Positions 16,552 to 24,367 of a stretch of 64,000 nucleotides of DNA are shown piece by piece. The stretch is from Pseudohongiella acticola. Its GTDB lineage: Bacteria; Pseudomonadota; Gammaproteobacteria; Pseudomonadales; Pseudohongiellaceae. Positions within the stretch are counted from its first letter, which is position 1, and the number at the start of each line of letters is the position of its first letter. The DNA lies in NCBI RefSeq assembly GCF_001758195.1, contig NZ_MASR01000002.1:310001-374000 (forward strand). The letters are read 5' to 3'. Both the position numbers and the translations under genes were made by a program. The notes below the pieces were generated by a model, which saw nothing but the letters and a program-made list of their open reading frames with translations, was not told the DNA's origin and ran no database searches.

Positions 16552-16932
16552 TTAAAGGCCGAACGAAGTCAAAATGGGGCACGGACCATCGGCGCCCGAA
16601 GCGCATTCGGTTGCTAGACGCTGAAGTGAATTGCGCGCGCGCTGAAGTTCCATGATTTTCTCATCAAGAGCATCGAGGCGGGACTGAGCCAGTTGGCGAG
16701 CGCGGCATCGATCCTGAGTAGCGTCCAGATCGAGCAGCTCCTTAATTTCTTTGAGCCTGAAGCCCGCCACCTTTGCCAGTTTAATGAACTGCAGGCGACG
16801 CAGATCATTCCGACCGTAGCGCCGTATGCCGCCACCTTGCTGTGGAACTTCAAGCATCCCTTTGCGTTGATAGAACCGGATTGTCTCGACACCAACACCG
16901 CCTGCCTCTGCAAATTTACCGATAGAAAACAT
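16552..16932 (-). CDS. merR: MerR family metal-responsive regulator, mercury type
   Basis: This 126-residue regulator begins MFSIGKFAEAGGVGVETIRF, followed by YQRKGML, very close to the Hg(II) sensor MerR of Tn501. Three cysteines occupy the metal-binding positions: C76 at the start of the dimerisation helix, C110, and C118 in the CPILTSF loop. A Cys (not Ser) at the C76 position is the mark of sensors for divalent soft metals such as Hg, Pb, Cd or Zn, and separates it from the Cu(I) sensor CueR. The frame is open further upstream, but that part is the operator itself. It faces the glutaredoxin-MauE gene across a mer-type operator and probably activates it. The C110-C118 spacing is one residue shorter than in Tn501 MerR, so metal preference is not certain. 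Confidence 0.88.
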   Translation of the reverse strand: MFSIGKFAEAGGVGVETIRFYQRKGMLEVPQQGGGIRRYGRNDLRRLQFIKLAKVAGFRLKEIKELLDLDATQDRCRARQLAQSRLDALDEKIMELQRARNSLQRLATECASGADGPCPILTSFGL

Positions 16933-16938
16933 CTCTGC

Positions 16939-16970
16939 TTGACTCCGTACTATGGTACGGCATCTATTAT
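16939..16970 (+). promoter_or_regulatory. mer-type operator/promoter for the glutaredoxin-MauE gene
   Basis: TTGACT (-35, 16939-16944) and TATTAT (-10, 16965-16970) are 20 bases apart, the overlong spacing that MerR activators correct by twisting DNA. The spacer holds the perfect dyad CCGTAC-TATG-GTACGG (16945-16960). The -35 plus dyad match the Tn501 mer operator (TTGACTCCGTAC....GTACGG) except for the four central bases. The merR start codon is seven bases to the left, as in mer operons. Confidence 0.85.
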
Positions 16971-17006
16971 AGATCAAAATCACACAAACCATACAGGGGG
17001 TATTAA

Positions 17007-17789
17007 ATGTCCGTTGGAAACCGAAAATCGCAAAAAACTGCCACAGTTTATCGCATGGTGATGGATCAACATGTGTGCCCGTATGGACTCAAGACTAACG
17101 ATCTGTTGCGGCGCAATGGTTTCAAAGTAGAGGATCACTGGCTGACCTCGCGTGAAGAAACCGACGCGTTCAAGTCGGAACACCAGGTTGAAACGACACC
17201 GCAGACCTTCATTGAAGGGCAGAGAATCGGCGGCTACGACGATCTGCGTCGCCACTTGGGCAAGCCTGTCCCTGTCAAGGGTGCGACAAGCTACAAGCCC
17301 GTGATCGCACTTTTCAGCATGACTCTTCTGATGGCGCTGGCGGCGAGTTTTGCCATTTACGGCAATCCGTTTACTGTGAGAGCCGCTGAATGGTTTATCG
17401 CCTTCAGCATGGCAATTCTGGCGCTTCTGAAACTGCAGAACGTCGAAAGCTTCGCGACAATGTTCCTGAATTATGATCTGCTGGCCAAACGGTGGGTGCC
17501 ATACTCCTATATATACCCCTTCGCCGAAGGTTTCGCAGGCATTTTGATGATTGCCGGAATCCTGACCTGGTTATCAGTGCCGGTGGCACTTTTTATCGGC
17601 ATCGTGGGCGCGGTGTCGGTATTCAAAGCCGTTTATTTTGACCGGCGGGAACTCAAATGCGCCTGTGTAGGCGGCTCAAGCAACGTTCCGCTGGGCTTCG
17701 TGTCTCTCACCGAAAACCTGATGATGATCGCCATGGCGATCTGGATGGCATTAGACGCATTGGGAATTGGTGTAAGCCATCCAGTTTAA
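17007..17789 (+). CDS. Glutaredoxin-MauE/DoxX-type redox membrane fusion protein
   Basis: This 260-residue fusion starts with a soluble glutaredoxin-like domain (residues about 10-88), with a single active-site Cys in HVCPYG (C24), the cis-Pro segment TTPQTFIEG and the GGYDDL glutathione-binding turn. Four to five membrane segments follow (about 98-252), of the MauE/DoxX redox-associated type. A CAC pair (C218, C220) sits in the conserved loop KCACVGGSSNVPLGF before the last helix. The monothiol centre (CPYG, not CPYC) suggests glutathione-linked exchange or metal handling rather than dithiol reduction. An AGGGGG ribosome binding site lies six bases before the ATG. It is under a mer-type promoter but no merT, merP or merA is present. 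The function is not established; a role in thiol redox or metal transfer at the membrane is inferred. Confidence 0.83.
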   Translation: MSVGNRKSQKTATVYRMVMDQHVCPYGLKTNDLLRRNGFKVEDHWLTSREETDAFKSEHQVETTPQTFIEGQRIGGYDDLRRHLGKPVPVKGATSYKPVIALFSMTLLMALAASFAIYGNPFTVRAAEWFIAFSMAILALLKLQNVESFATMFLNYDLLAKRWVPYSYIYPFAEGFAGILMIAGILTWLSVPVALFIGIVGAVSVFKAVYFDRRELKCACVGGSSNVPLGFVSLTENLMMIAMAIWMALDALGIGVSHPV

Positions 17790-17820: not shown

Positions 17821-18585
17821 TTAAAACCAGATCCGGAAGCCAGCAACCCATTGAGTGCTGCTGGCGTCCTCACCAGCGTCGGCGGCGAATTCGGCAGCGT
17901 CGCCAAACTTCCTGTTCCAGTTTATGCCGATGTAGGGGGCGAACTCGCGCCTTACTTCGTAGCGGAGTCTTATACCAGCTTGAATGTCAGAAAGCCCTGA
18001 CCCGGTACCCCGCGCTCTGTCGTTCTGCCCATAAAAATCCAGTTCAATTTCGGGCGATAGCACCCACTGCTGTGTCAGTAGGAGCTCGTATTCGGTGGAA
18101 AGACTCATGGCCGCACCACCCGACTTGCTGATAAACAGTGCTGCTTCAGTCTCAAAGAAATACGGTGCCAGGCCTTGCAAACCCAATACGGCCCAGCTGC
18201 GACCATCATCCGGTCGGATGTCCTGACGCAAGCCCATCTGAAGATCCCAATATGGCGCAACAGCTCTGCTGTAGAGCGCCTGCAACTCGAATTCCTCAAC
18301 GTCGCCGTCAAGCGAATCAATATCGGCCTTCATCCAGAATTTGTTCAGGTCCGAGCCGATCCATGCTTCCCCTTCAAGGATAAGCGGACTGCCATCATCT
18401 CCGTGTCGTAGTTCCAATTGATCGATCATCACTGAGCGGAAAATATCCGGGGCATGTTCGACGGCATGGGCGTGAACGTCGATACCCCCAGGAGCAGTCT
18501 CCACTTGCTGGGCATTCGCTGTCGCCGCCGCACCCAGCCCCAGCACCATCGCGATGCACGTTTTACTTTTCACAGGTCTGATCAT
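17821..18585 (-). CDS. copB: Copper resistance outer-membrane protein CopB
   Basis: This 254-residue protein has a signal peptide (cleavage after ATANA), a short His-containing N-terminal stretch (DVHAHAVEHAPD), and then the conserved CopB barrel: LILEGEAWIGSDLNKFWMK, ALYSRAVAPYWDLQMG and the C-terminal APYIGINWNRKFG ending in FRIWF. CopB partners the multicopper oxidase CopA in periplasmic copper tolerance and is thought to act at the outer membrane. The start overlaps the copA stop by four bases (ATGA), so the two are translationally coupled. The N-terminal Met/His-rich repeat region seen in longer CopB proteins is missing here. Confidence 0.93.
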   Translation of the reverse strand: MIRPVKSKTCIAMVLGLGAAATANAQQVETAPGGIDVHAHAVEHAPDIFRSVMIDQLELRHGDDGSPLILEGEAWIGSDLNKFWMKADIDSLDGDVEEFELQALYSRAVAPYWDLQMGLRQDIRPDDGRSWAVLGLQGLAPYFFETEAALFISKSGGAAMSLSTEYELLLTQQWVLSPEIELDFYGQNDRARGTGSGLSDIQAGIRLRYEVRREFAPYIGINWNRKFGDAAEFAADAGEDASSTQWVAGFRIWF

Positions 18586-20582
18586 GACTGTCCTCCTCGG
18601 CTAACGCGCACTTCTCGCATCATGCCTGGCATGTGATAAAGCAGGTGGCAATGATAGGCCCAGCGCCCCATCGCATCTGCCGTTACCAGATAGCTGATCG
18701 TGGAGCCCGGCTGCACAATAATGGTGTGCTTGCGAGGTATATAGTCAGGATCGCCCGTCTCAAGCTCGCTCCACATCCCGTGCAGGTGGATTGGATGCGC
18801 CATCATCGTATCGTTCACCAGTACGACGCGGACTCTTTCACCGAATTCGAGCTCAAGAGGCTGCGCATCAGCAAACGGGATGCCGTTAATAGACCACATG
18901 TAGCGATTCATATTTCCGGTGAGGTGGAGCTGGATTTCGCGTGACGGCTCTCTCCTATCGATGGTTGGATAGAGATTGCGGAGGTCTGCATAAGTCAGTA
19001 CGCGCCGACCGTATAGACGATCATGATCACGAAGCCCCAGCCCCGGATCGTGCAAGCCGTTCTGTGGCGAGTCGGCACGCATATCCACACCGGGACCGAA
19101 CTCGCTCTCCCGGTGGTAAATTTCGTTCCCTGCACCGAAGTTGCTGCCGAAGCCGGCCTTGCCCAGTGATGACGTTGTACCATGCTGGCTATGGTCGATC
19201 GCCCTGTCGGCCCCGCCGTGCTGACTGTGATCGAACTGCGGTTCGTTCATCATGTGCTGACTGTGGTCCATCAGCTGCTCGTTCATAACATGCTGGCTGT
19301 GGTCCATCGGCTGTTCGGCCGTGACGTGCTGACTATGATCTACCGCCATGTCGTCCATCTCGGCCATGTCGTGCCCGCCGTGGTCGGCTCCCATGCCCAT
19401 GTCCTCGTGCCCAAGCAGGGGGCGAGGGTCCATCGCAGGCACTGCAGCTTCCAAGCCTGGATCCGACGTCAGCGTACCGCGGGCGTAACCGCTGCGGTCA
19501 CTGGCCTGTGCGAAGACGGTAAAGGCAGCCTCTTCCACGGGTTCGACAATGACATCGTAGGTCTCGGCAACAGCGACACGAAACTCATCCACTGGCACCG
19601 GCCGGACGTTCTGGCCATCCGCAGCCACCACAGTCATCTTGAGACCCGGAATTCGAACATCGAACAATGTCATGGCAGCTGCATTGATAAAACGCAGCCT
19701 GACCTTCTCTCCTGGTTGAAAGATTCCGGTCCAGCCTTCATCCGGGGTTACACCGTTCATCAGAAAGGTATAGGTATAGCCAGTCACATCAGCCAGATCC
19801 GTCTGACTCATACGCATCCGGTTCCACATGGCCCGGTCTTTCCATGCTTGAACAACGCCTTTCTCTTTAACGTCCTGCCAAAGGTCGCCGGCGGTTCTTT
19901 CGTTGAAGTTATAGTAATGACTGGCCTTTTTGAGTTTTGCATAAAGATTTTCAGGCTCTTCATCTGTCCAGTCGGACAGCATCACCACGTACTCACGGTC
20001 ATAAAGAACCGGATCCGGCTCTTTGGGATCAATGATGATTGCGCCGTAGAGTCCGGTTTGTTCCTGAAATCCGGAATGACTGTGGTACCAGTAAGTGCCA
20101 TTTTGAACGACATCGAACTGGTACTCGAATGTCTCACCCGCCGGAATGCCAGCGAAACTGACGCCGGGAACCCCGTCCATGTCCTCCGGCAGTATCGCCC
20201 CGTGCCAGTGGATGGAGCTGAGGTGTGGCAGACGATTGGTGACCCGCAACGTCACCCGTTCACCTTCCTTCCAGCGCAATGTCGGTCCGGGCAAGCCCTG
20301 GTTGACTGTCGTGGCCACGCGCGGGCGACCAGTGAAGTTGACCTGTTTGTAATCTATGTCGAGATCGAACACATTGCCCGAAATTGTTTTAGTGTCCGTA
20401 GGCGCGGCGGCAGCTAAGAGACTCCGGGGAAAGGGCATGGCAGTCAGTGCCAGCGCAGAAGATGCGCCCAGTACGAAGCGTCTTCGGGCATGGCCGCCTT
20501 CCGGTAAGACGTCTGTTGACTCGATCGCAGGGGTTTGACTATAGAAGCGCCTTTTGCGCCCGGTTTTGACAGTAGGAAACAT
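18582..20582 (-). CDS. copA: CopA-type periplasmic multicopper oxidase
   Basis: This 666-residue copper-resistance oxidase carries a twin-arginine signal (RRRFVLGASS, near residue 33), so it is exported folded. Three cupredoxin domains carry all four copper-ligand motifs: HWHG (about 126-129), HSHSGFQEQTG (about 167), HPIHLHGM (about 597) and HCHLLYHMPGMM (about 644), the last containing the type 1 Cys-His pair. Between domains two and three is a Met/His-rich section (about 390-470) with five exact-period DHSQH repeats, presumably an extra copper-binding store. It should oxidise Cu(I) to Cu(II) in the periplasm. It forms an operon with copB downstream and probably with the small His/Cys-rich gene upstream. 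Confidence 0.94.
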   Translation of the reverse strand: MFPTVKTGRKRRFYSQTPAIESTDVLPEGGHARRRFVLGASSALALTAMPFPRSLLAAAAPTDTKTISGNVFDLDIDYKQVNFTGRPRVATTVNQGLPGPTLRWKEGERVTLRVTNRLPHLSSIHWHGAILPEDMDGVPGVSFAGIPAGETFEYQFDVVQNGTYWYHSHSGFQEQTGLYGAIIIDPKEPDPVLYDREYVVMLSDWTDEEPENLYAKLKKASHYYNFNERTAGDLWQDVKEKGVVQAWKDRAMWNRMRMSQTDLADVTGYTYTFLMNGVTPDEGWTGIFQPGEKVRLRFINAAAMTLFDVRIPGLKMTVVAADGQNVRPVPVDEFRVAVAETYDVIVEPVEEAAFTVFAQASDRSGYARGTLTSDPGLEAAVPAMDPRPLLGHEDMGMGADHGGHDMAEMDDMAVDHSQHVTAEQPMDHSQHVMNEQLMDHSQHMMNEPQFDHSQHGGADRAIDHSQHGTTSSLGKAGFGSNFGAGNEIYHRESEFGPGVDMRADSPQNGLHDPGLGLRDHDRLYGRRVLTYADLRNLYPTIDRREPSREIQLHLTGNMNRYMWSINGIPFADAQPLELEFGERVRVVLVNDTMMAHPIHLHGMWSELETGDPDYIPRKHTIIVQPGSTISYLVTADAMGRWAYHCHLLYHMPGMMREVRVSRGGQS
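19161..19340 (-). repeat. Five 36-bp repeats encoding the DHSQH metal-binding array in CopA
   Basis: The pentapeptide DHSQH starts at residues 415, 427, 439, 451 and 463, an exact 12-residue period. The unit is DHSQHVxxEQxM in the better preserved copies, decaying toward the C-terminal side. At the DNA level the units are imperfect direct repeats of 36 bp. Confidence 0.9.
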
Positions 20583-20724: not shown

Positions 20725-21114
20725 TTAGCGGATAATCGGGGGGCGATAGAGGGGAGAGACAGACTGACTCGCAGCGAGCTGACTGGGAAGGCCGAATTTG
20801 TTCTCGGCAGTCAGCCGTTGATCGAAACCTGACAATGACTGTAATTGGGCAGGGTTGAAGCAGCCACCCAATGCACATTCACAATTGAACTTGCAACGCT
20901 CCTCATGATCAGTCATTCCGCTGTGAACATGACCTGAGTGCTCAGCCTCTTGATGCTCACCCATAGCATGGGCAGCATGATCCATAACAGGTACGGAACC
21001 GGAAGAGCGCTCGCCGTGTACAGGCAACGAAGTGGATGCCAATGATTGGCCGCAGACCGCAAGCAGGACGACAACAATTATCCATTTTGTATGTTTAAAC
21101 ATGGTCATAGGCAT
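20725..21114 (-). CDS. Small exported His/Cys-rich protein of the copper island
   Basis: This 129-residue protein has an N-terminal signal peptide (IIVVVLLAVCGQSLAST) and a mature part rich in possible metal ligands: MDHAAHAMGEHQEAEHSGHVH, followed by a Cys cluster CKFNCECALGGC. It ends in a basic, proline-rich tail. I do not recognise a named family; proteins of this kind often precede copA in copper clusters and are presumed periplasmic copper binders. It is upstream of copA on the same strand, 142 bases away. Two further in-frame ATGs follow the first (codons 3 and 5) and no strong ribosome binding site separates them. Confidence 0.72.
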   Translation of the reverse strand: MPMTMFKHTKWIIVVVLLAVCGQSLASTSLPVHGERSSGSVPVMDHAAHAMGEHQEAEHSGHVHSGMTDHEERCKFNCECALGGCFNPAQLQSLSGFDQRLTAENKFGLPSQLAASQSVSPLYRPPIIR

Positions 21115-21328: not shown

Positions 21329-22435
21329 TCAGTATAGAATAACGCTACGAATGGATTTGCCTTCGTGCATCAGATCAAAGGCATCATTAATTTTGTCCAG
21401 CGGCATGGTATGCGTGATCAGGTCATCAATATTAAGTTTGCCTTCCATGTACCAGTCGACAATCGTAGGCACATCGGTACGACCTCTGGCGCCACCAAAA
21501 GCGCTGCCGCGCCAGACTCGGCCCGTCACCAGTTGAAACGGCCGCGTTGAAATTTCCTGGCCCGCACCTGCGACTCCGATCACAATGGATTCGCCCCAAC
21601 CTTTGTGACAGGCCTCCAGTGCCTGCCGCATGGTGTTGACGTTGCCGATGCATTCGAAGGTATAGTCAGCGCCACCGCGAGTGATATCCACGATGGCTTC
21701 TACCACATCATGGACTTCTTTCGGGTTTATAAAATCGGTCATGCCGAATTTTTTCGCCAACTCAACCTTGGCCGGGTTTATATCAACGCCTACAATCTGT
21801 CGCGCTCCCACCATACGTGCCGCCTGTATCACATTAAGGCCAATGCCGCCCAGGCCGAACACCACCACTCGTGATCCGGGTTCAACTTTGGCATCGAACA
21901 CTACGGCCCCGACCCCGGTGGTGACACCGCAACCGATGTAGCAGACTTTGTCTACGGGCGCATCGTTGCGTATCTTTGCTACCGCAATTTCAGGCAATAC
22001 CGTGTAATTGGAGAACGTCGAACAACCCATGTAGTGCATCAATGGTTTGCCGTCCAGCGAAAACCGGCTGCTGCCATCAGGCATGACGCCTTTGCCCTGA
22101 GTCGTGCGAATGGCCTGACAGAGATTTGTTTTCGGGTGCAGGCAGTATTCGCACTCGCGGCACTCCGGTGTGTACAGCGGTATGACGGTATCGCCGACAG
22201 CCACTGATTTCACACCGGCGCCCACTTCAACCACAACGCCGGCGCCCTCATGGCCCAGAATGGTTGGGAACGCACCTTCCGGATCATCACCGGAGAGCGT
22301 GAACGCATCCGTGTGGCAAACGCCGGTGGCTTTCAACTCGACCAGCACTTCACCCGCTCTGGGGCCTTCCAGATCAACTTCCATTACTTCCAGCGGCTTG
22401 CCAGCACCAAACGCAACGGCGGCTCGTGTTTTCAT
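21329..22435 (-). CDS. frmA: S-(hydroxymethyl)glutathione dehydrogenase / class III alcohol dehydrogenase
   Basis: This 368-residue zinc-dependent dehydrogenase oxidises S-hydroxymethylglutathione (the spontaneous adduct of formaldehyde and glutathione) to S-formylglutathione with NAD+. Catalytic zinc ligands are visible at C40 (GVCHTDAF) and in GHEGAG (H62); structural zinc cysteines are at 92, 95, 98 and 106 (CRECEYC...C). The Rossmann motif is [15 protein letters not shown]. The protein is of family length. The ATG is chosen over an adjacent upstream GTG. It lies 51 bases downstream of fghA on the same strand, so the two detoxification steps are encoded together. Confidence 0.96.
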
Positions 22436-22486
22436 CACTTCAATCCTCTGTTTGTGTCATTCGCGAGCCGGTGCCCGCGCATAGTT

Positions 22487-23317
22487 TCAGGCGAGCAGGT
22501 ATTTCGCGTGGAAACGAATATGCTCTTCAATAAATGTCGCAATAAAATAGTAGCTATGGTCGTAACCCGACTGAAAGCGGATGTCCGCGTCGGTCTTTTC
22601 GCTTAGCACCGTCGCCAGGTTTTCAGTCAGCAATTGCTCGGCGAGAAACTCGTCAGCCGTGCCTTGATCCACCAGCAACGGCAAGCTCAGGCCATGCTCC
22701 TTGATCAATTCAACGCTGTCATATTGCGCCCACTCGCTGCGATCATCACCCAGATAGCGGGCCAGGGCTTTTTGTCCCCACAGGCAGGCCATGGGATTGA
22801 CGATTGGCGCGAATGCCGATACGGAGGTGTATTGCGCCGGGTTTTTAATGGCGATGGTCAATGCGCCGTGTCCGCCCATGGAATGTCCGCTGATGGCTTT
22901 ATTGGCATTGACGGGCAAGTGTGTCGCCACGAACTGGGGTAACTCGTGCGCGATATAATCATACATGCGGTAATGCGCCTTCCACGGCGCCTGCGTGGCA
23001 TTGACGTAGAAACCAGCGCCCTGCCCCATATCATAACTGTCATCATCCGGCACCGCCGCACCGCGCGGGCTGGTGTCCGCAATGACCAGTGCGATGCCCA
23101 GCTCGGCAGCCACCCGTTGCGCGCCGGCTTTGGTACTGAAGTTCTCATCACTGCAGGTCAGACCGGACAACCAGTACAGCACCGGTACCGGATTCTGCGA
23201 CGACAGCCCGTGTGGCATAAACACAGAGAAGCGCATCACGCATTGCAGGGACTCGGAAGGATGTTCGATACGAAGCTGCTCACCACCGAACATGCGTTGA
23301 TTGCTGATGACTTTCAT
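22487..23317 (-). CDS. fghA: S-formylglutathione hydrolase
   Basis: This 276-residue alpha/beta hydrolase, esterase D type, releases formate and glutathione from S-formylglutathione. The nucleophile elbow is GHSMGGHG (Ser146), with the acid in LVDQGTADEFL (about 220) and the His in SGYDHSYYFIATF (about 255). The GLTCSDENFSTKAGAQRVA segment is diagnostic. The open frame extends 36 codons upstream, but the ATG at MKVISNQRMFGGEQ has GGAG a few bases before it and gives the usual family length. It is the first gene of a two-gene unit with frmA. Confidence 0.95.
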   Translation of the reverse strand: MKVISNQRMFGGEQLRIEHPSESLQCVMRFSVFMPHGLSSQNPVPVLYWLSGLTCSDENFSTKAGAQRVAAELGIALVIADTSPRGAAVPDDDSYDMGQGAGFYVNATQAPWKAHYRMYDYIAHELPQFVATHLPVNANKAISGHSMGGHGALTIAIKNPAQYTSVSAFAPIVNPMACLWGQKALARYLGDDRSEWAQYDSVELIKEHGLSLPLLVDQGTADEFLAEQLLTENLATVLSEKTDADIRFQSGYDHSYYFIATFIEEHIRFHAKYLLA

Positions 23318-23466
23318 ATTGGCTCCTGCATATCGGTTCCTGTCTATCGGATTCAGTCGTGTTTTGTTTGCAGTTGAGACGATAAACCACCACGCGCAAA
23401 AAAACCAATGCAATTGAGCACTCAAAAAGACGGCCCGCCATCATGGCAGCATCGTGTTACGTTGAC

Positions 23467-23491: not shown

Positions 23492-24367
23492 ATGGCTGTC
23501 CTAAAGTCGCGATTGCGGCGCTTTCTCCATCGCTCAGAAAATACTAGTACGGAAATTGATTTGATCACAGTTGCTGGCCCATTTGCCCTGTCTGCCGAAC
23601 GCCTGCTGGTACTGGCTGGCTTTGCCGTTGCCGTGCTGGCGGGATGGCTGCTGAGCCGTCGTCGGGGACAAACAATGCCAGTGTCCACAACGCTGACCGG
23701 CATGCTGGTGGCGGGATTCATCAGCTCTCGCCTGGCCTTTATACTGTTGTACCTTGATGACTATCTGATCGAGCCCCTCAGTATGCTGGACGTACGTGAC
23801 GGCGGATTTCATTTCCCAAGCGGTGTGTTGGCAGCAGCGTTGGTTGGCCTTTTTCAGGGCTGGCGCAGTCCGGCCATCCGCAAACCCCTCAGTGTGGCCG
23901 TGTTCAGTGGTATAACGATATGGGGCCTGGGGCTCCTCAGCCTGACGCAGCTCCAGCCCGCCCGCCCGATGTTGCCGCCCATCTCACTGACAGCCATGAA
24001 CGGCGACAGCCTCAACTTGCAGACACTGAACAATCGCCCGATGGTGGTCAATCTGTGGGCTACCTGGTGCCTGCCCTGCCGGCGGGAAATGCCGGTACTG
24101 GAGCGCGCGCAGCAACGCGATACCTGGCTCAACTACGTGTTTATCAATCAGGCCGAATCCATTGCCCAGATTGAAAACTACCTGGCAGACGAAGGCTTGG
24201 ATCTGGACAATGTTCTGCTTGACGTCAGCGCTGTCTCCGGCCGCTTGCTGCAGACCCGGGGCCTGCCCAGCACCTATTTCTTTGACGCCGAAGGCAACAT
24301 GACAGACGTCCATGTCGGTGAGTTGTCACGGGCAACGCTGAATCAGCAACTGCGCAAATTGCGCTAG
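23492..24367 (+). CDS. Membrane-anchored TlpA-like thioredoxin with Lgt-like N-terminal domain
   Basis: This 291-residue protein has an N-terminal part (about 25-155) with four membrane segments, arranged like a shortened prolipoprotein diacylglyceryl transferase (Lgt) fold: ISSRLAFILLYLDDYLIEPLSMLDVRDGGF followed by FPSGVLAAALVG. The C-terminal part is a periplasmic thioredoxin domain of TlpA/ResA type with WATWCLPCRREMP (C193 and C196) and the cis-Pro segment RGLPSTYFFD. It should reduce periplasmic disulfides or serve cytochrome c maturation. The membrane part probably only anchors or relays electrons, since catalytic Lgt residues are not evident. It is divergent from fghA. Confidence 0.82.
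   Translation: MAVLKSRLRRFLHRSENTSTEIDLITVAGPFALSAERLLVLAGFAVAVLAGWLLSRRRGQTMPVSTTLTGMLVAGFISSRLAFILLYLDDYLIEPLSMLDVRDGGFHFPSGVLAAALVGLFQGWRSPAIRKPLSVAVFSGITIWGLGLLSLTQLQPARPMLPPISLTAMNGDSLNLQTLNNRPMVVNLWATWCLPCRREMPVLERAQQRDTWLNYVFINQAESIAQIENYLADEGLDLDNVLLDVSAVSGRLLQTRGLPSTYFFDAEGNMTDVHVGELSRATLNQQLRKLR

Follow-up and report, generated by a model that had tools for sequence, protein, structure and literature searches.

Which genes does a mercury-type switch control when no mercury-resistance genes follow it, and to what signal does it answer? This question is raised by a divergent gene pair of Pseudohongiella acticola within a 64,000-nucleotide stretch of DNA (the window), in which a MerR-family regulator and a mer-type operator stand upstream of a gene for a glutaredoxin (Grx) fused to a MauE domain (Table 1). 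The initial annotation of the pair was mostly right, and what it described is more general than a single locus; the part that changed concerns the metal.

Table 1. Features of the gene pair and of the adjoining copper genes, in window coordinates
Feature	Position	Strand	Basis
MerR-family regulator, 126 aa from MFSIGKF	16552..16932	-	Pfam MerR_1 and MerR-DNA-bind; divergent
-35 hexamer TTGACT	16939..16944	+	Sequence reading; match against shuffles
Mer-type dyad CCGTAC-TATG-GTACGG	16945..16960		Exact; kept in 84/86 merR-linked relatives
-10 hexamer TATTAT	16965..16970	+	20-base spacer; spacer of 20 best in 71/80 aligned promoters
Glutaredoxin-MauE fusion, 260 aa	17007..17789	+	Pfam, family conservation, AlphaFold2; Grx ~11-83, MauE 124-249
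C24 codon, CPYG site	17076..17078	+	Invariant in 126/126 rows
C218-A219-C220 (CAC) codons	17658..17666	+	Invariant in 126/126 rows
copB	17821..18585	-	Pfam CopB, 286.3 bits; converges on the fusion
copA-type multicopper oxidase	18582..20582	-	TIGR01480, 854.7 bits (cut-off 478.95)

The cassette of regulator, operator and fusion

Both halves of the fusion score above their Pfam cut-offs, Glutaredoxin with 25.6 bits (cut-off 22.9) and MauE with 48.9 bits (cut-off 27), and their order, an N-terminal CPYG glutaredoxin followed by a MauE domain, is that of the Grx-MauE (SmGrx3) family. C24, C218 and C220 are the sole cysteines of the protein and are invariant in all 126 family rows, as are G27, G75-G76, A219, G222-G223 and P228-G230; conservation across these rows rules out a spurious fusion. 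The protein had been described as a monothiol glutaredoxin fused to MauE. Its C24 glutaredoxin domain, MauE domain and CAC pair are all present, but the active site reads CPYG, and the homologue SmGrx3 is classed as 'atypical', apart from the CGFS monothiol enzymes. The MauE domain is shared with MauE of methylamine utilisation, yet a direct profile comparison with classical stand-alone MauE gave no match. The genome also encodes a stand-alone MauE (L001, contig C1 near 56418), which carries CGC and, unlike the fusion, lacks a glutaredoxin; by eye, it lies in a mau-type cluster with methylamine dehydrogenase-like genes.

An AlphaFold2 model of the fusion, built from 58 sequences with a mean pLDDT of 80.5, renders the glutaredoxin domain well. 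It also has five probable membrane helices, spanning residues 97-118, 124-144, 169-183, 187-211 and 227-251, along with a pair of short ones (146-153, 157-166). Confidence is low for the CAC loop, and because residues 219-225 fall below a pLDDT of 50 we claim no contact between C24 and the CAC pair. A search of the PDB with Foldseek returned no match at E <=0.001; the best matches listed had, for the most part, the folds of glutaredoxins and glutathione transferases and offered no clear counterpart of the MauE half. Averaged over 58 sequences, lysines and arginines number 15.4 in residues 1-96, 2.1 in 145-168, 3.0 in 212-226 and 0 in the two short loops. By the positive-inside rule, the charges on the glutaredoxin, 145-168 and CAC segments would place both the glutaredoxin site and the CAC motif in the cytosol, although the uncharged loops, only 5 and 3 residues long, make this weak evidence for topology. 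On this basis we tentatively predict an inner-membrane protein of five helices with C24 and the CAC pair both facing the cytosol.

Upstream of the fusion, the promoter reads TTGACT-CCGTAC-TATG-GTACGG-CATC-TATTAT, with the mer-type operator inside a 20-base spacer; the hexamers, dyad and spacer first proposed for this region were found exactly at 16939-16970. The segment TTGACTCCGTACTATGGTACGG is exact at 16939-16960, and a chance operator is ruled out by shuffled sequences, from which 0.01 matches are expected at three or fewer mismatches. The exact dyad CCGTAC-N4-GTACGG occurs once in the 3.6-Mb genome, at this site. Its placement in a long spacer is characteristic of mercury MerR promoters and the operator has the same form as that of Tn21/Tn501-type mer systems. 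Likeness to Tn501 was compared solely through one MerT-linked locus (L189), whose operator agrees with what we take to be the Tn501 operator. The spacer length of 20 bases is not distinctive, since the mer promoters of MerT-linked loci have spacers of 19 or 20.

A scan of genome contigs yielded 485 relatives of the fusion, the best 80 of which were analysed along with annotated plasmid loci and further genomes, giving 127 loci (the window itself, L121, is among them, and L110 duplicates L004). A divergent merR lies just upstream of the fusion in 87 of the 127, and a pair unique to this genome can be rejected. Close homologues that never carried CCGTAC-N4-GTACGG would have refuted the initial annotation, but most of those linked to merR do carry it. 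With the window copy left out, 84 of 86 merR-linked loci match the operator over 18 positions with no more than 3 mismatches, 44 of them exactly; the two exceptions, L143 and the cyanobacterial L119, were counted although their MerRs are of other kinds. By comparison, 36 of 40 merR-less loci have at least 6 operator mismatches and four retain a near match; the operator therefore tracks the regulator. The commonest dyad centre is CATG (56), which gives a perfect 16-base palindrome, CCGTACCATGGTACGG, in 30 of the 86 merR-linked loci. Among the dyads listed for 398 genomes, 9 exact copies lie beside Grx-MauE and 10 beside MerT, as judged from coordinates compared by hand. Clustering of neighbouring ORFs, in which the fusion and its antisense/merR side were set aside and which was blurred by antisense ORFs in GC-rich DNA, gave no third conserved gene, the largest other cluster covering 6 loci. 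Together, merR, operator and Grx-MauE gene form a conserved cassette.

On a Picosynechococcus plasmid (L119:4334-5780), the Grx-MauE gene is divergent from a MerR outside the clade described below, with Cys at the key metal-site column. The promoter sequence differs (TTGACTCTACAGCTCACTACAGGGT), and a copper oxidase gene lies ~3 kb away. Grx-MauE genes may have come under MerR control on more than one occasion.

The regulator clade and its metal-site column

The regulator, whose coordinates hold if MFSIGKF is its start, is closest among solved structures to Tn501 MerR (5crl, E 2e-23), followed by Bacillus MerR and CueR, and its recognition-helix stretch ETIRFYQRKG is identical in Tn501/Tn21-like MerR. 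It nevertheless falls under the cut-off of every named MerR model that it matched, with 101.9 bits for the mercury MerR model TIGR02051 (cut-off 150.85) and 81.6 bits for the CueR model TIGR02044 (cut-off 147.4). A tree built from 74 sequences unites 35 of 37 sampled Grx-linked regulators in one clade (support 100/100), whose branch measures 1.2 changes per column. This clade groups with 15 Tn21-type MerT-linked MerRs (98/87), while CueR, ZntR and CadR are placed elsewhere. The tree has few columns, a midpoint root and bootstrap values that had not settled, and with the mer side at 87/54 the clade may be either sister to the mercury regulators or nested among them. Simple orthology to CueR is ruled out by the sub-cut-off score and by the position outside the CueR branch.

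A profile of the clade was run against 398 genomes, sampled evenly across the phylum, and no more than 10 candidates were scored in each. Fourteen matches scored 175-216 bits, the next reaching 142, and 13 of the 14 adjoin a Grx-MauE gene (coordinates compared by hand). The remaining regulator (L227 in G155, 184.5 bits) keeps TTGACTCCGTACCATGCTACGG upstream although no Grx-MauE was matched in its genome; it may have lost its target or exchanged it for another.

The initial annotation had assigned the regulator the three-cysteine set of divalent soft-metal sensors, C76, C110 and C118. Residues C110 and C118 are indeed the loop cysteines of CueR and MerR, each conserved in 85 of the 88 aligned rows (the 87 loci and, for a second time, the window). 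C76, however, is off by one residue and is not conserved: in three alignments it is R75 that occupies the column of MerR Cys82 and CueR Ser77. Over the 88 rows this column holds Arg in 78, His in 8, Cys in 1 (L119) and Ser in 1 (L143, which groups with CueR), whereas it is Cys in 32 of 32 MerT-linked MerRs. The position of C76 is Cys in three rows only, namely the window, its copy and L081. C76 may contribute in the window protein, but with this distribution its role would not extend to the family as a whole.

In Tn501 MerR, three cysteines hold Hg in a trigonal plane, and the C82Y substitution is described as badly impairing both dimerisation and Hg binding (PMC5027573). With R75 in the C82 column, the window regulator lacks the full set of Hg-binding cysteines (C82, C117 and C126). 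Further differences of the clade from Tn21/Tn501 MerR are its long branch, a target other than merTPA and a loop of x7 rather than x8; a scan found C-x7-C in 81 of 87 loci, x8 in 2 and no matching loop in 4. Two cysteines in the C-x7-C spacing of E. coli CueR, with no third, are the CueR arrangement. Because some MerT-linked MerRs also have an x7 loop, the loop alone is no copper marker, and the clade departs from CueR in having Arg/His for Ser77, a mer-type operator and a separate place in the tree. Ser at this column is ascribed to monovalent-ion sensors and Cys to divalent-ion sensors (PMC11591864, citing Ibanez 2015), and the Arg/His of the clade agrees with neither rule.

Gene neighbourhoods

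The description of the fusion as lying beside copper genes and without merTPA holds. The window has no merT, and copB and a copA-type oxidase follow downstream; a CopL-like gene (20725-21114) falls short of its cut-off of 40, with 23.6 bits. No merT, merP or merA lies under the operator. MerT is matched only once in the genome, on a different contig, where merR, merT, a merP-like gene and merA form a separate mercury operon, and in view of this operon the window pair is probably not what the genome relies on for mercury resistance. Two further Grx-MauE genes of the genome, 59-60% identical, have no adjoining clade-type merR, although one has a different MerR-family gene ~1.1 kb upstream. The mer operon at C1:1112500-1121000 (L109) has the operator CCGTATCCAACTACGG and, by eye, a transposase-like ORF after it.

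Neighbours were counted in two samples. Among the best 80 of the 485 relatives, a copper-type gene lies within 4 kb of 13 of 65 merR-linked loci (for four, only the ATPase query gave a match, in two cases at 51 bits) and of 3 of 15 merR-less loci. MerT or MerP was found within 4 kb of 0 of the 65 merR-linked loci and of none of the merR-less loci in this set. RND-type genes lie near 8 of the 65, one of the two queries having come from one such locus.

The second sample, from across the phylum, covered 40 of 67 Grx-MauE places: 13 linked to a clade regulator and 27 others, hand-picked and mostly higher-scoring with room for a control. About 9 kb was taken on each side, three places being shortened by contig ends, and 40 stretches ~40-70 kb away on the same contigs served as controls. 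The copper set comprised multicopper/copper oxidase, CopB, CopC, CopD, DUF305, DUF411 and azurin-like proteins at 60 bits or more; DUF305 and DUF411 are presumed copper genes, partly from context. Such genes occur near 7 of 13 merR-linked and 12 of 27 merR-less places and near 0 of 40 controls, counts that are not fully independent, as some places share a genome or genus. Two query proteins came from the window itself, so the comparison was repeated without it and gave 6 of 12 merR-linked places against 0 of 40 controls (p = 4.5e-5). DUF305 alone accounts for two of the seven merR-linked places and DUF411 alone for one; with oxidases and Cop proteins only, the counts are 3 of 12 merR-linked (p = 0.01), 10 of 27 merR-less and 0 of 40 controls. 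MerT or MerP was found near 0 of 40 fusion places and 1 of 40 controls, and RND and CDF genes each near 0 of the 13 merR-linked copies.

On plasmids (15 annotated loci, one without a gene table), four merR-less copies of the Roseobacter group and Alteromonas adjoin cueR, a heavy-metal ATPase, DUF305 or a copper oxidase, and a Sphingobium merR-less copy lies outside any copper cluster. Some merR-linked plasmid copies lie in copper clusters, one with another MerR, and others in unrelated surroundings. Many cassettes stand alone, as on Sinorhizobium meliloti pSymA. Overall, the context favours copper over mercury.

Candidate signals and known systems

We interpret the regulator as an offshoot of MerR that has kept the mer operator, has lost the Hg ligand and would induce a membrane glutaredoxin, most likely on Cu(I)-type stress, a reading in which we place modest confidence. 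A MerR dimer would sit on the palindrome within the 20-base spacer of the fusion promoter, and signal binding would switch it from repression to activation, as in the MerR family. A two-thiol site without a third cysteine is most like that of CueR and suggests Cu(I), Ag(I) or Au(I) as the most likely signal; Cu(I) or a similar monovalent ion would be held by C110 and C118, with Arg in the place of MerR's third Hg ligand. The induced protein would most likely carry out a glutathione-linked thiol reaction at the membrane, either countering Cu(I)-thiol damage or handling Cu(I)-glutathione, with the CAC pair as a possible partner in the glutaredoxin reaction. Gene context and the changed Hg ligand both favour copper as the candidate inducer. 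Against it stand the Ser, not Arg/His, reported at this column for monovalent-ion sensors (PMC11591864), the copper-type neighbours at only 13 of 65 merR-linked loci, the frequency of lone cassettes and the S. meliloti smgrx3 mutant, which had no defect (PMC6315971). A doubtful but conceivable extension is that the clade has a third kind of MerR metal site, in which Arg/His in place of a mercury sensor's third ligand would let the regulator recognise not a bare ion but a small anionic species, for example Cu(I)-glutathione or an oxidised or persulphide glutathione, in a feedback loop with its own membrane glutaredoxin.

An unlikely alternative is a thiol-redox or electrophile switch, in which a C110-C118 disulphide or adduct would signal the same stress that the glutaredoxin reverses. 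The two conserved cysteines and the glutathione-type target fit such a switch, a positive residue near the pair would suit a reactive thiolate, and a table in PMC6315971 gives heat shock as an inducing condition of SmGrx3. The C-x7-C-P-I loop nonetheless resembles those of metal-binding MerRs, and the surroundings of the cassette are enriched in copper genes. We consider it improbable that the regulator senses mercury or thiophilic metals broadly, with C76 or glutathione as third ligand to the two cysteines and a glutathione-linked Hg response as outcome. Kinship with mercury MerRs, the shared operator and the Cys one residue from the Hg-ligand column in the window protein and L081 speak for it, as does the linear dithiolate geometry that Hg(II) is described as often adopting (PMC5027573). 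A mercury reading nevertheless lacks support, because Arg/His fills 86 of 88 rows of a column that is Cys in all 32 MerT-linked MerRs. The C82Y phenotype (PMC5027573), the lack of MerT/MerP nearby and a genomic mer operon with its own MerR also count against it. The earlier proposal that the regulator senses Hg or another divalent soft metal is likewise not supported, given the Arg/His column, the missing MerT/MerP and the enriched copper genes. A divalent Zn/Cd/Pb sensor is very unlikely, for the RND-type genes at 8 of 65 linked loci, found partly with a query from such a locus, are offset by their absence, and that of CDF genes, near the 13 linked copies of the phylum sample, by the missing third cysteine and by the Cys ascribed to divalent sensors (PMC11591864).

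The nearest described protein is SmGrx3 (SMa0280) of S. meliloti, which shares the two-domain layout of CPYG glutaredoxin and MauE motif. On pSymA of S. meliloti 1021, we found a divergent regulator with Arg in the key column (GHNRSAARELA), together with the operator TTGACTCTGTACCATGCTACGG, neither of which is mentioned in the available text of PMC6315971. SmGrx3 is reported there to have low deglutathionylation activity, its mutant to be without defect and its function to be one that 'still remains to be elucidated'; copper does not come up in the same portion of text (PMC6315971). In the Gig system of Cupriavidus metallidurans, a DoxX-related membrane protein (GigT) and a thioredoxin-fold protein are connected with copper and glutathione (PMC10304878). 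They are separate proteins of a four-gene operon whose function is described as open (PMC10304878), and the comparison is one of possible working only. Among the matches listed in the open literature searched, no description of the MerR and Grx-MauE pair was found, and the available portions of PMC6741143 and PMC4182526 hold nothing on the fusion.

If the copper reading is correct, an apparent mercury regulator has been turned to another signal while its DNA site was kept, and SmGrx3-type proteins gain a predicted inducing condition. A mer-type operator or a 'MerR' label need not mean mercury resistance. With Cys, Ser or Arg/His at a single column, the clade offers a natural test of how MerR proteins choose their metals.

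Three further observations concern the window and relatives of its regulator. In the window, 5.7 kb from the cassette, profile matches identify another membrane thiol-redox fusion, an LGT-like membrane part joined to a TlpA/ResA-type thioredoxin (23492-24367); by eye, genes for a glutathione-type formaldehyde dehydrogenase and S-formylglutathione hydrolase precede it (21329-23425). A record of 804 bases labelled 'plasmid' (LR606147.1, L185) holds a single gene, for a MerR 66% identical to that of the window, and is probably an assembly fragment. Lastly, at L046:2607-2643 a longer inverted repeat with 15-base arms, ATAACCCCTCCGTAC-TGAG-GTACGGAGGGGTTAT, encloses a second dyad, separate from that of the fusion and upstream of a gene whose MerR product shares 60% identity with that of the window.
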